64,000 bases of DNA. It comes from Schizochytrium sp. TIO01. Lineage: Eukaryota > Sar > Bigyra > Thraustochytrida > Thraustochytriidae. A model generated the notes under the pieces. It was not told the origin of the DNA. It ran no database searches and saw only the letters and a list, made by a program, of their open reading frames with translations. The stretch covers positions 471,501-535,500 of the forward strand of contig SMSO01000005.1 of assembly GCA_004764695.1 (NCBI GenBank), written 5' to 3'. This document shows positions 11,018 to 48,000 of the stretch, in pieces (position 1 is the stretch's first letter; each line of letters opens with the position of its first letter). The position numbers and the translations under genes were made by a program.

Positions 11018-12957
11018 TGGCGACGATATTCTTCATCCTGAAGGCACTTCCTTTCGCGTGAGAAACACGAATCAAGTCCATGCGCGAGTCCGTTTCATAC
11101 AAGTCTGTCATGCCCTCATTCCTTCTACTCCCGCCTTAGGCCCCTTCTAGCGACGAGATTGCACTGGTCCCCACCAGCAACCGCTCTCCCAGTGTTGTTC
11201 CCTCCCTTCCCCTCTACGCTTTTTATATCCCCCTCTGCTGCAGGGGGGCTTCAGGTCATACGATTTGAATTTCTCTGCGAAGCTTTCCCTCCTATCCCAC
11301 TGCCACCCCTCCACTGACCGCGCCCCATTCACCTTTTACCTTCCAGTGCCTAGTGACGGTTGCCTCTCACGTCACTGGGAACTTCTCCAGTTTCCTTGAG
11401 AGGACGTTCATAACTGGAGCTCCTCACATAAGAGGGGGCCTCCATTCGCGCCTCCGTCTCCCTGGCTGGCAGGCTCCTATTGGTCCCCTAGCTGGTCCTA
11501 CTCGATACAGAAATAAGCAGCGGAGCGGCAGTTAGGCGGCGGCATCCATATCCCTAACTAATAACAAGCAGCGCCGTGGTCGTTAGGTCGCCCGCGCCGC
11601 CTCGCTTCGCCGCTTCTCCTCGCCGCTTCGCTGCCTCTGTTGCTCGCTGCGCCGAGCCTGCTGCTGGCCGCCCTGTGCTGCCTCGCCGCCGCCTGCTCGC
11701 CTCCCCTCCAGCCTGCTGGCTAGCTCTGCGGCGGCCTCTCGTCTCCTCGGTCTCGAGCTCCACGGTGGTTGTCGGCCATCGTTAGGCCAAACAAAGGCAA
11801 GCTGCCCTGGTAGGAGCTACTTAGCAGGGACTAGCCCCCGGCTAACGACCGCCTCTCGAGGAGTTCGTTAGGCGCACCTCCTACAGTTTGGGGTAGCTGG
11901 TGCTAGTGTCCGCGCCCATAACGACGGATACGCCAGAGCTCCTTAGGACTCCCTATAGCCCTTGTTGCTCCTGGATCCTACTGTTTTGGGTAGTGGGGGG
12001 TAGGAGAGAAGATACTTCACTTCTGCTCAAAATCACTCTTAATTCTTTCTCCGTCTGTTAGAAAGAGCCCCTTTATAAATTGCTATATAAAGGTCCAATA
12101 TCTGAGACATCAAAAGAACAGAGACGAGGGATTCTGGGCCTGCGTGTGCTAGAGTATTGTGTAGTTAAGCTCAGCCGCTGGTGACTTCGCCAAAAAGCGT
12201 GTGGCGGGACTCGCTCGCTTCGATTGAGCTTTGAAGAGGAAAGCAGCCGCCAAAGACGCGACAGCAGCCTCACGAAGCTCTCTCTCCGGTAGGTCTGTTT
12301 TTTCGACCTGCAGCGCTGCTTCATCCAGTCCATCCTCTTGGCTTGCTTGAATTGTTTGCTTGGCGTTCTGCTTGGCGTTCTCTTTCATAGGTGTTCTTTG
12401 TATCTGGGCTATCTTTTATTCGTAGCTAGGGTCCCGTTCTTTCTTTCTGTTAGGATTATAGAAGGAGAGAGAAAGAATAAGAAACAAGAAGTAAGACAAG
12501 ACAGTAAGACAGACCTCGAAGAGGAGGCGCCAACGTTCACGTGAACGTTGGCGAGCTCGCTTTGGGAGACAGGGCGCCTGCGTCTGGCAGGGTAACTCGA
12601 CCGGTCCCACGCATACCGGGATCGTCCCTATCATCAGGTTTCTACCGGTCTTCTAGTTTGCCAAGCATCGCATCGCAGACCGTTGGCTCACCATCAATCA
12701 ACTTGACTTACTCACTAAATCAAATCCATCCATCAGCCTGACTTTCAAGTTTACTACGCTGCACCGCACGTTGTGCTTCGCTCCGTGTTCTCAGAGGATC
12801 GCGGAGCTATTTGGAGGTAGGAGAAGACATTGCGTGGAAAGGGCTAAGTTAGCTAGCTAAGGTGATTGATTTCGGTTGATTGCAATTTATTGATTGTCAG
12901 TTATTCGAAATTTGTGATTGCCAACAGCTTGCTTGGAGATTGAGTGATCTGCCAAAG
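11018..12957. other. Intergenic, 1.9 kb: divergent promoter region upstream of the Myb-CXC gene
   Basis: No firm gene. 11540-11790 is very GC-rich with repeated cgccgc / gctgct words; open frames there on both strands are low-complexity. A 79-codon ATG frame on the minus strand at 12149-12388 (Ala/Lys-rich, LREAAVASLAAAF) could be a small gene, but nothing supports it beyond length. The perfect palindrome at 12528-12553 is listed separately. The last 350 bp before the Myb-CXC ATG are probably promoter and 5' leader. Confidence 0.5.
12528..12553. promoter_or_regulatory. 26-bp perfect palindrome with a CACGTG core, upstream of the Myb-CXC gene
   Basis: The dyad is exact over 26 bases and centred on CACGTG (an E-box/G-box). 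On each side lies AACGTT, then gcgcc/ggcg-type ends. It sits about 405 bp before the Myb-CXC ATG. A perfect dyad of this length is unlikely by chance and suggests a binding site for a dimeric bHLH or bZIP factor, or a cruciform. Which gene it serves is inference. Confidence 0.6.
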
Positions 12958-15900
12958 ATGTCGGCGAGCGAGAACAGCAATGGGTGGGAAGCTCGCGAGA
13001 GGCTGAGCAGCTTTGCAGCCATTGCGTCGCAGACACCGCCAATTGAAACAAGCAGCATGAACGCGAGGCTCAGGTCTGACCTCTCACCATTCATGGCGAC
13101 GAACCAGGCTTTCGTGAATTCGCCACTCTTCTCAGAGGGTCAACCAATGTCGCCTCTGTGTATGATTAGACACTCACGCTCACCTGGCACGAGCCTACGC
13201 AGGAACCTCGCAAGATCCAATGCCCTACAAAGCATCACACGCGCAGAGTCATCGTCATCCTCGAATTTAGGTGATGGTAGCGAAGACCTGAAGTCATCAT
13301 CTGCCAACGCAAGGCGGGCTTCCTCAGAGTCTGAAAATGATGCCGACGATGGCAATGCATCTTCGGACCGCCAAGGACGGAAAACCAAAGTCCGGCGCAT
13401 ATCAGGACACGGCGCTAGCGCAAGCTCACAGCCCTCGGGCGCGTCATCCTCCGCAGCGGTGCCAACGGCGAGTGCTGCGACTGCAAATCCCCATGGTACA
13501 CGGGGGTCTATGAAGTCAAAACAACGTGCTAGCGGGAAATCCTCAAGCAAAAATCCATCGGGTGCCACCTATGATATCCCGGCTGCTCCACGAACGACAA
13601 ATGGCCCTCGCACAAAGTCCCTCAAGAACATGGTTACTAACATGGCAGAATCAGGCCGGCGATCCCAAAACCGCGGTCAGTGGACACCTGAGGAAGACAA
13701 ACGCCTTATTGCATTGGTACGTGAGAATGGCGCAAACGGCTGGACGCAGATCGCAGCTGATTTAAATACAGGTCGAAATGGTCGACAGTGCCGTGAGCGA
13801 TGGTCAAACCAGATTAATCCGAATCTTGTGCGAGCCAAGTGGTCTAAGGAAGAGGATGAGGTGATCCTGCGAGCGCATAGCGAGGTAGGTAACCGCTGGG
13901 CAACGATTGCAAAACTTTTGCCGGGTCGCACGGACAACATGGTTAAGAACCGATTCAATGGATCGCTGCTGCCGAAACAAGTTCGCAAAGCGCGCGAGAG
14001 CGGAGAGGAGCCTACAATTTTAAAGAAGTCCAAAGAGCCTGTACCAAGGAACCCTGATCGTAAAAAGAAAATAGAGTTCTCAGACGAAACATTGGCATTG
14101 GCAAACCAGCTTCAGGAAATGGAAAGATCAGCGCCGCTGCTCAAAGCTTCCACTCGTGGCTTGCCACCATCCGGTGGTAGCGGATCAAATTTGAACTCCG
14201 GTTCTCCATCGGCAGATTCTGATGATGGAAATGATGGTCATCTGACACGTACTGCTTCTGGATCATCTGCAGGAGTGTCTTCGATCACCAGTAGCAATGC
14301 TGGAAAGCTTCCCAAATCCGACGCTCCAATTTCAGCTCCCATTCGGAGGCCTGCCGTACCTTCTTGTGTTCCAGGTAGCATGGCGCAACCTACGAGCACC
14401 AGCAAGCCTAAGCCACGAGTTGGAGGCTCTGCCTTCAGTACCGCCTCGATTAACAGCAGCGGGAGGTCAAGCAGTAGCAGCAGCAGCAGTGATCGGTCGG
14501 AAAGTGCAGGTCCTAAGCGAGGAATTAAGCGCCGGCCGACGAAACAGCACTCTGATAGCATGACATCCGACATGGCCTACAACGATGATGTAATGTCAAG
14601 AGTTACCAAGGAGCTCCCAAATACTAGCAGCGCCGCGTACAACCCTGCAAGCTTTTTCTTTGACAGCAGGAGCACTGTGAATGATTTGGAGACCCCTAAG
14701 TCGCCACCTGAACGTTTCTCTGGGCTCTTCAACGCCAGCCCCGGTAGCCTTGCTAATGCAACACCAGGTCAAACGTTTGGACTTGATATGTCAGAGACTT
14801 TTGTTGGCAGTAGTCGTGAGCTCTTCAAGGGCAATAATGATGTTCCTCCGTCTCCCATGATTAATTTCAATTTGTTTGCTTCTCCCGTCATAAAAGTCAG
14901 CGAGAGTCCTGCTCCGACTCAACAGATGCTGCGTGAGAACATAACAAACATGCCAGCCAAGCGTCGTTTGAATTTGCTTTTCGCCGACAACATGGATGCG
15001 ATAGCCGACTCAGATAAGTCTAAACGATTGGTTCCTGGTCAGCAAAGTCCGGCTCCAGACGACCCTTTTTCAAGAAGCTCACTTAGTACCCCACGTGCTA
15101 GCTCGAGTCGTGAATTCGCTTCTACGCCCATGACAGTTTCATCTGATTTTGAGAATGTTTTTCTCAACAGCCTAGCGAAGGGTGGTGACATGGAGGATTT
15201 TATCCACCAACTCGCTCTTAGTTCTGTGAAACGAAGCCCTAATGGACCAGATGCAATGAAGGGTCTTCGTGATCCATCAGGCGTGCGCCGAGCTTTGGAT
15301 GGGTCTTCTCCTGAAGCAACACCTTTGAGTAAGTTTGGAAAAGATACTCCTCAAGAATTGGCAAAATTGCGCTCTCACAAGCTTGATTTACTAAGCTCTC
15401 CTAGTAAAACGGCCATCAGCAGTAACAACACTGGAAACACCTTGAGCCAATTAGCTAATTCCTCATTCCTCAACGGACCTGTGCGCCTTGGAGAATCACG
15501 ATACTCCAAAGTCACATCAACCGGATCTACTAGTGGAAACCCGGGAAACGGGTATGAGGCGGGTTCTCAGGATCAACACTTGAATGCTTTTACCGCTTTG
15601 AAGTCAGAAGACGTCGAGCATCCTTCGAAGAAGCTTCAAGTGCTGGAGCCCGCCGCACAGTCAATTCACTCTCCAAACAATGACGAAGATCATGACGATA
15701 ACAAGATCAACAAAAATCATGATCATGACAACGAAGATCATGATGAGGACGATGAAAAAAAGTCCGATCGCCCCGGTTCAAGCCAACTGACCGATGACGC
15801 CGGGGCCGCTGAAACTTGCTCTCGGTCAAGTGCGTCAAGTCCAGAACCTTTGGACTCTACGCATACAGGCAAGGAAGTTTGGGAGGTCAGCAATGACCTT

Positions 15901-16383
15901 CCGTGCAAATGCCGTCGTTCTAAGTGCCTCAAACTCTATTGCACTTGTTTCGCTGGTGAAATGCATTGTGGTGATTTATGTCTTTGCTTAAATTGCTCCA
16001 ATCGTCCAAACAATGACCGCTGGAGGAAGGCCGCGCAGTTTGCTTCGGAGAAGAAAGTCTCAGAAGCTTCTCCTATTCAGTGCCGCTGCCGCAACTCTCA
16101 GTGCTTAAAGAAATACTGCGATTGTTTTCGTGCCTCAGTTAAGTGTGGTTCTATCTGCAAATGCACAGATTGCCACAATACTGAGGCAGGCCAGCACCTG
16201 CTTGATCGCACGGATGCAGCATCACTGGAGTCGTCCTGTACTGAAGACTCAAATAGCCGTGAAGCGTTGGAATCCTTCCGTAAACAAACAACCCCGCTCA
16301 GCGCAGATCGGGATTTCGCCACGAAGAATCTTGCCATGCTGGCTTATGAAAGTCCTCGCGGTACGGCGATGACGGGCATTTGA
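12958..16383 (+). CDS. Two-repeat Myb plus two-repeat CXC (tesmin/LIN54-type) transcription factor
   Basis: The reading frame opens at 12880 with a TTG; the first ATG is at 12958, giving 1141 residues. A Ser-rich N-terminus leads to two Myb repeats at about 236-341: GQWTPEEDKRLIALV with Trp 242, 262 and 282, and AKWSKEEDEVILRA ending in NMVKNRFNG. A long Ser/Pro-rich linker and a D/H/N-rich acidic stretch (about 905-935) follow. The C-terminus has two CXC repeats starting at Cys983 (CKCRRSKCLKLYCTCF) and Cys1042 (CRCRNSQCLKKYCDCF). Tyr994 and Tyr1053 match the tyrosines that LIN54 inserts into the DNA minor groove. In animals Myb and LIN54 are separate subunits that meet on MuvB complexes at cell-cycle genes; here both DNA-binding modules are on one chain. 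A nuclear regulator, possibly of cell-cycle genes, is inferred. Many SP/TP sites in the linker could be CDK targets. Confidence 0.92.
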   Translation: MSASENSNGWEARERLSSFAAIASQTPPIETSSMNARLRSDLSPFMATNQAFVNSPLFSEGQPMSPLCMIRHSRSPGTSLRRNLARSNALQSITRAESSSSSNLGDGSEDLKSSSANARRASSESENDADDGNASSDRQGRKTKVRRISGHGASASSQPSGASSSAAVPTASAATANPHGTRGSMKSKQRASGKSSSKNPSGATYDIPAAPRTTNGPRTKSLKNMVTNMAESGRRSQNRGQWTPEEDKRLIALVRENGANGWTQIAADLNTGRNGRQCRERWSNQINPNLVRAKWSKEEDEVILRAHSEVGNRWATIAKLLPGRTDNMVKNRFNGSLLPKQVRKARESGEEPTILKKSKEPVPRNPDRKKKIEFSDETLALANQLQEMERSAPLLKASTRGLPPSGGSGSNLNSGSPSADSDDGNDGHLTRTASGSSAGVSSITSSNAGKLPKSDAPISAPIRRPAVPSCVPGSMAQPTSTSKPKPRVGGSAFSTASINSSGRSSSSSSSSDRSESAGPKRGIKRRPTKQHSDSMTSDMAYNDDVMSRVTKELPNTSSAAYNPASFFFDSRSTVNDLETPKSPPERFSGLFNASPGSLANATPGQTFGLDMSETFVGSSRELFKGNNDVPPSPMINFNLFASPVIKVSESPAPTQQMLRENITNMPAKRRLNLLFADNMDAIADSDKSKRLVPGQQSPAPDDPFSRSSLSTPRASSSREFASTPMTVSSDFENVFLNSLAKGGDMEDFIHQLALSSVKRSPNGPDAMKGLRDPSGVRRALDGSSPEATPLSKFGKDTPQELAKLRSHKLDLLSSPSKTAISSNNTGNTLSQLANSSFLNGPVRLGESRYSKVTSTGSTSGNPGNGYEAGSQDQHLNAFTALKSEDVEHPSKKLQVLEPAAQSIHSPNNDEDHDDNKINKNHDHDNEDHDEDDEKKSDRPGSSQLTDDAGAAETCSRSSASSPEPLDSTHTGKEVWEVSNDLPCKCRRSKCLKLYCTCFAGEMHCGDLCLCLNCSNRPNNDRWRKAAQFASEKKVSEASPIQCRCRNSQCLKKYCDCFRASVKCGSICKCTDCHNTEAGQHLLDRTDAASLESSCTEDSNSREALESFRKQTTPLSADRDFATKNLAMLAYESPRGTAMTGI

Positions 16384-45960: not shown

Positions 45961-48000
45961 ATGGCGTCTGTTTCCCTTTCTGTGGTTCTGGACGTGCTTC
46001 TGATCGAGGACGATGCCGCTCGCTGCGGTGCTGCCGATTGGTCCCCAGAACCTGTTCTCGTCGCCGCTCCTGCGCCTCCCAGTGGCAAGTTTGTCGAGCA
46101 GGCCGGCCATGCTTTTCATGTGCACTGCCGCCGCGTCTGGGGCCTTACGGCTGGTTCCGAGGCTGAAAGCAGCGATGCGGAAGCCGAAAACAGCGGCAAA
46201 GATGCTCCGGGGAACGGAGACATGGATGAAGACGCAAAGTTGAGGGCTGCCTGGGAGGCTAAACGTGCTGCTCGTGAGCTCGCGGCTAGCAAGGATGATG
46301 AGGACCAGGAGAACCTCTACGAGATCCTCGGAATTGGCCACATTGGCTTCAGCGCAAGCGCGAAACAGCTCAAGAAGGCGTACCAGAAGGCTATTCTTGT
46401 ACACCACCCCGACAAGTTGAGCGAGGCCGAACGTGCCAAGGCTGAGGCGGCACAGCTGGACCGCTCTATGGAGGAGCCTATGTTCCTCAAGGTCCAGCGC
46501 GCCTGGGACATTCTCAGCAACCCGGCCAAGAAGCGCGGCTATGATTCGCAGTTCGCCTTCGACGACTCAATCCCGTCTGCCTTTGCTAAGTTTGAGAGTG
46601 ACGAGGAGTTCTTCGAGACATACGCGCCTGTGTTCGACCGCAACGCGCGATTCTCCAACAAGAAGCCCGTCCCGCCCCTGGGTGACATGAGCACTCCTCA
46701 TGCCAAGGTGCAGCACTTCTACAAGTTCTGGACATTCTTTGACTCATGGCGTGAGTTCACCAAGTTCGATGAGTTCAAGGACGGTGATCTGGAGAGCGCT
46801 GGCTCGAGATACGAGCGTAGATGGATGCAGAGACAGAATGACATCATTCGCGGCAAGAAGAAGAAGGAGGAGATTCAGCGCGTGCGGGACCTCGTCGAGC
46901 GTGCAATGGCTAGTGATCCTCGTATCCAAAGAGCCAAAGAATTGGAGCGCGAAGAGAAGGAGCGCAAGCACAAGGAGCGCAAAGCGGAAAAGGAGGCCGC
47001 AGCGAAGGCCCTTCGAGCCAAGGATGAAGCAGAACGCGAAGCGCGGGAGATCGCTGAACGCGAGGCAAAGGAGAAAGCGGAACGTGAGAGAGTGGAGAAG
47101 CAAGTAACCAAGAAAGCGTTTAAGAAACAGATTCGTATCCTACGCAAATGCTGCGATGCTGCAGCTGATATGCTCGGTATCTCGCCGCAGGAACTTTCGG
47201 ATATTTCCCACGAAATTACACATCTTTCTGAGTGGTACTCAAAGGATACCGATGTCGCCGTGTGTGTAGACGCCTTCAAAGGTGACCTTGACGTCCCCAA
47301 CGGAGAATGGTTTGAGCCCGCCACGGAGGAGACAGCTCGTGCAGGTATTGAGGCAATCCACAATCTGCACAATGCAGGCACGCAAGACAAACAGGCTGAA
47401 GACGCTGACGAGGAAGAGAAACGCAAGCGCCGCGCAGAGGAAGACGAGCGTCAACGCGCAGCACAGAAACTCGAGGCTGAGGGTGCAGCATGGAACGCAG
47501 ATGAGCTCTCTGGACTTGCCAAAGCAATTCGCAAGTTCCCACCCGGAAGTCGCAACCGTTGGGTTATGATTGCCAACTACGTCAACACACTGCCCAACCA
47601 GCCCACAGAACGCACCCCCGAGGAGTGCCTCAAGCAGTCCAAGGCAGCCGACAACGACCTTGTTGGACGCCAGCAGCTTGGAACTGCGGAAGCTGCCTTC
47701 TCTCACTACAAACGCCAGCTTGCCACGAAGACTGCCGGCCCCGCCGAGGCGGCCGACGAGGAGCCTGCAGCTGCCACATCCGCTGAAGGTGAGGACGAAG
47801 TTGAAGGCGAGGAGGATGTGTGGACCCCCGAACAGCAGGCCGCTCTTGAGGCTGCGCTCAAGGAGTTCCCCCCAAGCATGGACAAGAACGAACGCTGGAA
47901 GTCAATCGCCAAGGCTGTGCCTGGTAAAAAGAAGAAGGATTGTGTTGCTCGGTTTAAGGAACTTCGTGCTAAGGTTATGGAAAAGCGTGGAAATGCTTGA
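45961..48000 (+). CDS. DNAJC2: Zuotin / DNAJC2 (MPP11) ribosome-associated J-protein
   Basis: The first ATG is at 45961 (the frame opens at a TTG six codons earlier), giving 679 residues. The J domain at about 118-195 has NLYEILGIGHIGFSASAKQL, then HHPDKL with the HPD motif near 150, and FLKVQRAWDILSNPAKKRGY. The zuotin homology region (DSIPS, FNARFSNKKPVPPLGD-like block, KFWTFFDSWREF) follows. A highly charged K/E helix at about 300-385 is the ribosome-binding part. Two SANT/Myb-like domains end the protein (about 508-560, WNADELSGLAKAIRKFPPGS; about 618-675, WTPEQQAALEAALKEFPPSM). With an Hsp70 partner, zuotin forms the ribosome-associated complex that helps nascent-chain folding. C-terminal SANT domains are present in plant and animal homologues and absent in yeast. 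GC-rich codon use suggests high expression. Confidence 0.95.
   Translation: MASVSLSVVLDVLLIEDDAARCGAADWSPEPVLVAAPAPPSGKFVEQAGHAFHVHCRRVWGLTAGSEAESSDAEAENSGKDAPGNGDMDEDAKLRAAWEAKRAARELAASKDDEDQENLYEILGIGHIGFSASAKQLKKAYQKAILVHHPDKLSEAERAKAEAAQLDRSMEEPMFLKVQRAWDILSNPAKKRGYDSQFAFDDSIPSAFAKFESDEEFFETYAPVFDRNARFSNKKPVPPLGDMSTPHAKVQHFYKFWTFFDSWREFTKFDEFKDGDLESAGSRYERRWMQRQNDIIRGKKKKEEIQRVRDLVERAMASDPRIQRAKELEREEKERKHKERKAEKEAAAKALRAKDEAEREAREIAEREAKEKAERERVEKQVTKKAFKKQIRILRKCCDAAADMLGISPQELSDISHEITHLSEWYSKDTDVAVCVDAFKGDLDVPNGEWFEPATEETARAGIEAIHNLHNAGTQDKQAEDADEEEKRKRRAEEDERQRAAQKLEAEGAAWNADELSGLAKAIRKFPPGSRNRWVMIANYVNTLPNQPTERTPEECLKQSKAADNDLVGRQQLGTAEAAFSHYKRQLATKTAGPAEAADEEPAAATSAEGEDEVEGEEDVWTPEQQAALEAALKEFPPSMDKNERWKSIAKAVPGKKKKDCVARFKELRAKVMEKRGNA

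Follow-up and report, generated by a model that had tools for sequence, protein, structure and literature searches.

How Myb and CXC (LIN54-like) proteins are tied to one another outside animals is an open question in the field, because the animal MuvB-binding (docking) peptide on Myb is missing there (PMC7225089). The two partners are separate proteins in animals, in Arabidopsis, in Chlamydomonas/green algae and in Tetrahymena, where MybL1 is paired with Anqa1 (PMC4974476; PMC6927116; PMC8216455). In the window, the whole 64-kb stretch of DNA that was analysed, a single open frame carries both kinds of domain (Table 1). Is this frame one protein, and is that protein the two partners joined or something else? 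A natural Myb-CXC protein on one chain would provide a simple and testable handle on the problem: are both elements read, and are cell-cycle genes the targets? The analysis indicates that the Myb-CXC fusion is genuine and has an unusual architecture. It is best read as an additional regulator, not simply both partners joined, and is classed here as a variant of the known Myb and CXC families rather than a MuvB fusion.

Table 1. Positions in the window of the fusion frame, its parts and an upstream palindrome.
Feature	Position	Strand	Remarks
26-bp perfect palindrome CGCCAACGTTCACGTGAACGTTGGCG	12528..12553	.	CACGTG centre, CAACG/CGTTG arms; ~400 bp upstream of fusion ORF
Myb-CXC fusion ORF	12958..16383	+	1141 aa, stop-free, no intron needed
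R2R3 Myb DNA-binding domain	13663..13980	+	residues 236-341; Pfam PF00249, phmmer, blastp
Linker between Myb and CXC	13981..15903	+	~640 residues, rich in S, P, A, D
KRRLNLLF in linker	14959..14982	+	residues 668-675; direct reading and regex
CXC repeat 1	15904..15996	+	residues 983-1013; nine cysteines; Y994 = LIN54 Y536
Inter-repeat linker	15997..16080	+	shortened, without RNPxAFxPK of LIN54; alignment
CXC repeat 2	16081..16173	+	residues 1042-1072; nine cysteines; Y1053 = LIN54 Y610
Stop codon of fusion ORF	16381-16383

The two DNA-binding domains

An earlier note had placed two Myb repeats at residues 236–341, and these are confirmed both by Pfam (Myb_DNA-binding, PF00249; E 1.1e-31, two stretches, far over the cut-off) and by phmmer against the sequences of solved structures, where residues 239–338 match c-Myb and B-Myb (1h88/1a5j). 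The Myb part is an R2R3 unit of two adjacent repeats with c-Myb-type recognition helices, and is 53–55% identical to R2R3 of human c-Myb/B-Myb. Of the eight base-contact positions of c-Myb, six are kept in the alignment (E132, N136, N179, K182, N183 and N186), whereas arginine replaces K128 and glycine replaces S187. The recognition helices and most of the base-contacting residues are thus shared with c-Myb, B-Myb and MYB3R. The fusion differs from these proteins in bearing CXC repeats at its C-terminus and in the absence of R1: no third Myb repeat, of the kind that defines the animal-type protein, is present in the frame. Among the chains of solved structures there was no match to the C-terminal MuvB-binding peptide of B-Myb, a short peptide that is hard to detect. 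In a quick tree of Mybs the fused domain has no well-supported sister.

At the other end of the frame, TCR/CXC (PF03638) is matched in two stretches with E 2e-22 (79.6 bits against a cut-off of 23.5), and phmmer aligns residues 981–1077 with LIN54 (5FD3). The earlier assignment of two CXC repeats to residues 983–1074 holds for their number, but the cysteine-bounded limits are those of Table 1. Alignment to LIN54 shows that 18 of 18 CXC cysteines and both minor-groove tyrosines are kept. The tyrosines previously proposed to contact DNA do indeed occupy the positions of the two LIN54 tyrosines that are needed for TTYRAA binding (PMC4974476). Tandem repeats scoring over the cut-off, each with nine cysteines and a tyrosine, place the fusion within the Tesmin/TSO1-like CXC family, and these same features are shared with LIN54, TSO1 and tesmin (CRC, CPP). 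LIN54-type proteins, in contrast, have the RNPxAFxPK linker that the fusion lacks, and have no Myb domain. Because the fused CXC is only 34–39% identical to LIN54, and its tyrosines are separated by 59 residues rather than the 74 of LIN54, its choice of site may differ. Single-sequence structure models of the two domains reached pLDDT values of 38 and 45 and were unusable.

Separate relatives and the novelty of the architecture

CXC and Myb relatives were searched for across the 64-Mb genome (G000). Besides the fusion, the genome contains three intact CXC proteins and one relic. None of the three intact proteins has a Myb domain, and the Myb-CXC architecture therefore appears to be single-copy; no second genome site was found that matches both parts of the fusion, and the viral contigs hold no relatives of it. 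The CXC copy at G000:C34:888248-888346 is degenerate and is interrupted by a stop in its frame. Genome-wide, kinesin is matched 67 times and the Myb repeat about 150 times, so that the two families seem large for a unicellular protist.

The earlier note had asked whether a stand-alone LIN54 is present or lost, and a stand-alone LIN54-like protein is present. This protein (C34) is 51% identical to human LIN54 over the domain and keeps RNPxAFxPK. It matches LIN54 with 115 bits, compared with 51 bits for the fusion, the lowest score of the four intact CXC proteins. The fusion is neither the genome's best LIN54 match nor a carrier of the linker that would mark a LIN54 orthologue. A stand-alone Myb (C7) is, similarly, 74% identical to R2R3 of human c-Myb. 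Close relatives of the canonical partners thus stand alone in the genome, and the fusion comes in addition to them and has diverged. The suggestion that the frame is a Rosetta stone for the Myb-MuvB partnership thus survives in part: domain families that belong to separate partners do lie on one chain, but the chain is not LIN54 plus an animal-type Myb, to which the C34 and C7 proteins are closer.

A description of Myb and CXC domains in one protein was not found in the literature that was searched, nor is the architecture mentioned in the algal and stramenopile surveys looked into. The earlier note had recognized that a fusion already described as common would lose its novelty, and the searched literature holds no such description. 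There is nevertheless a considerable chance, though somewhat the lesser one, that the architecture is common among stramenopiles or thraustochytrids and has passed unremarked in databases. A published thraustochytrid genome, for example, lists 50 MYB genes without their domain partners (PMC7179369); the silence of the papers and surveys argues the other way. Such a result would bear on novelty and not on mechanism.

Possible functions and promoter elements

The fusion is best regarded, with moderate confidence, as a single-copy nuclear bivalent transcription factor of a thraustochytrid that has two independent sequence-specific DNA-binding modules on one chain and exists beside retained relatives. 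DNA binding by both modules, the identities of the sites, nuclear location and bivalent use are all predicted from sequence. The R2R3 Myb would recognize AACNG-type sequence from the major groove, and the two tyrosines of the tandem CXC would let it recognize A/T-rich, TTYRAA-like sequence from the minor groove. The linker is long and probably disordered, may be a target of proline-directed kinases, and by its flexibility would allow both modules to occupy the same promoter even where the distance between their sites varies. The fusion would then act as an additional regulator next to the stand-alone LIN54-like and c-Myb-like proteins.

It is unlikely that only one module binds specifically and that the other, most likely the CXC, has become a zinc-bound protein-interaction module or a non-specific DNA clamp. 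Several LIN54 backbone-contact residues are altered in the fused CXC (N609 to K, for instance), and together with the shortened linker and the loss of RNPxAFxPK these changes might be explained by such a role. Retention of both tyrosines and of every CXC cysteine speaks against it, as does the Myb domain, in which the contacts are largely kept.

More doubtful still is the idea that the fusion is a covalent version of Myb-MuvB that has replaced LIN54 and B-Myb at mitotic promoters. The Myb-MuvB/DREAM assemblies (animals; Arabidopsis MYB3R with TCX/TSO1; Tetrahymena MybL1 with Anqa1) resemble the fusion in combining Myb and tandem CXC in one regulator, but there, as in Chlamydomonas, the domains reside on separate proteins, and their union on one chain is what recommends the idea. 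It is also favoured by overlapping Myb and CHR cores in one promoter, considered below, and by the genome searches for LIN9 (DIRP), LIN9_C and LIN52, which gave no match but carried no positive control, such that absence is not established. One survey recognized LIN52 in no groups other than Metazoa and Amoebozoa, and a published study of Tetrahymena did not detect it. A replacement of LIN54 and B-Myb is difficult to reconcile with the closer stand-alone relatives that the genome has kept, with a fused CXC that is the most LIN54-distant of the four, or with the kinesin promoters described next.

A cell-cycle transcription setting does exist, since the genome has RB (A and B boxes), DP and several cyclins, including a B-type-like one. 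A cell-cycle role for the fusion is plausible but unproven. In the promoter of the cyclin-B-like gene (L040, - strand), GGCCGTTTGAAG is located at -92 from the first ATG, and in the segment CCGTTTGAA a Myb core (CCGTT) overlaps a canonical CHR (TTTGAA). A degenerate Myb-plus-CHR composite has about a 2% chance of occurring per promoter, and several promoters were looked at. In 17 kinesin promoters there are 7 Myb cores where 12.9 are expected and 9 CHRs where 10.4 are expected, and neither is enriched. The composite element was therefore not counted as support, being a single hit that could arise by chance and that is accompanied by no enrichment at kinesins; the cyclin-B-like promoter is a lead only. 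It would seem slightly less probable even than the replacement of LIN54 and B-Myb that, in a lineage devoid of LIN9, LIN52 and the animal MuvB-binding domain, covalent fusion couples Myb and CHR recognition to make a single-chain reader of composites like CCGTTTGAA. The earlier statement that one polypeptide may read both element types can be kept as a possibility, since both domains are present and their key DNA-contacting residues are retained.

The palindrome upstream of the frame is a possible regulatory site. No second exact copy of its 22-bp core occurs among the genomic loci examined. Thraustochytrids are transformable and gene-targetable, according to work cited in PMC7179369, so that deletion of the fusion gene is feasible.

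The cell-cycle setting also includes a CDK-like kinase that is fused to cyclin N and C domains in one frame of 1033 aa (L042, G000:C31 ~3925 kb, - strand).

The linker and the continuity of the frame

Translation confirms the 1141-residue frame that had been claimed, free of stops, and its supposed lack of introns is consistent with the sequence. Within the linker there are no stops in the fusion frame, compared with 16–61 in each of the other five frames, and some 640 open codons would arise by chance with a probability of about 1e-13, given the base composition here. Very improbably, then, does the frame represent two genes or an assembly join and not one transcript: the linker is of low complexity, which would favour such a reading, but it contains no tandem repeat, the adjoining genes (kinesin, RCC1-filamin, sulfotransferase, ABC transporter and S19e) are likewise long intronless frames, and both ideas were rejected because the linker is open throughout. 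A codon-preference profile along the fusion frame gave too weak a signal, with few training genes, and the 64-kb window has no Rfam matches.

The linker contains 18 S/T-P sites where 12.4 are expected, a marginal enrichment (P about 0.05), and RxL enrichment is likewise marginal. The peptide KRRLNLLF resembles a cyclin-docking RxL motif of the E2F1 type.

Two further features lie outside the fusion. Positions 45961-48000 of the window encode a DnaJ protein of the Zuotin type that ends in a Myb/SANT repeat, an ordinary, MPP11-like architecture. Elsewhere on the window's contig, one frame (G000:C4:611495-614707) holds about ten acyl-carrier domains in tandem, which in a eukaryote are typical of the PUFA synthase of thraustochytrids and point to such an organism.
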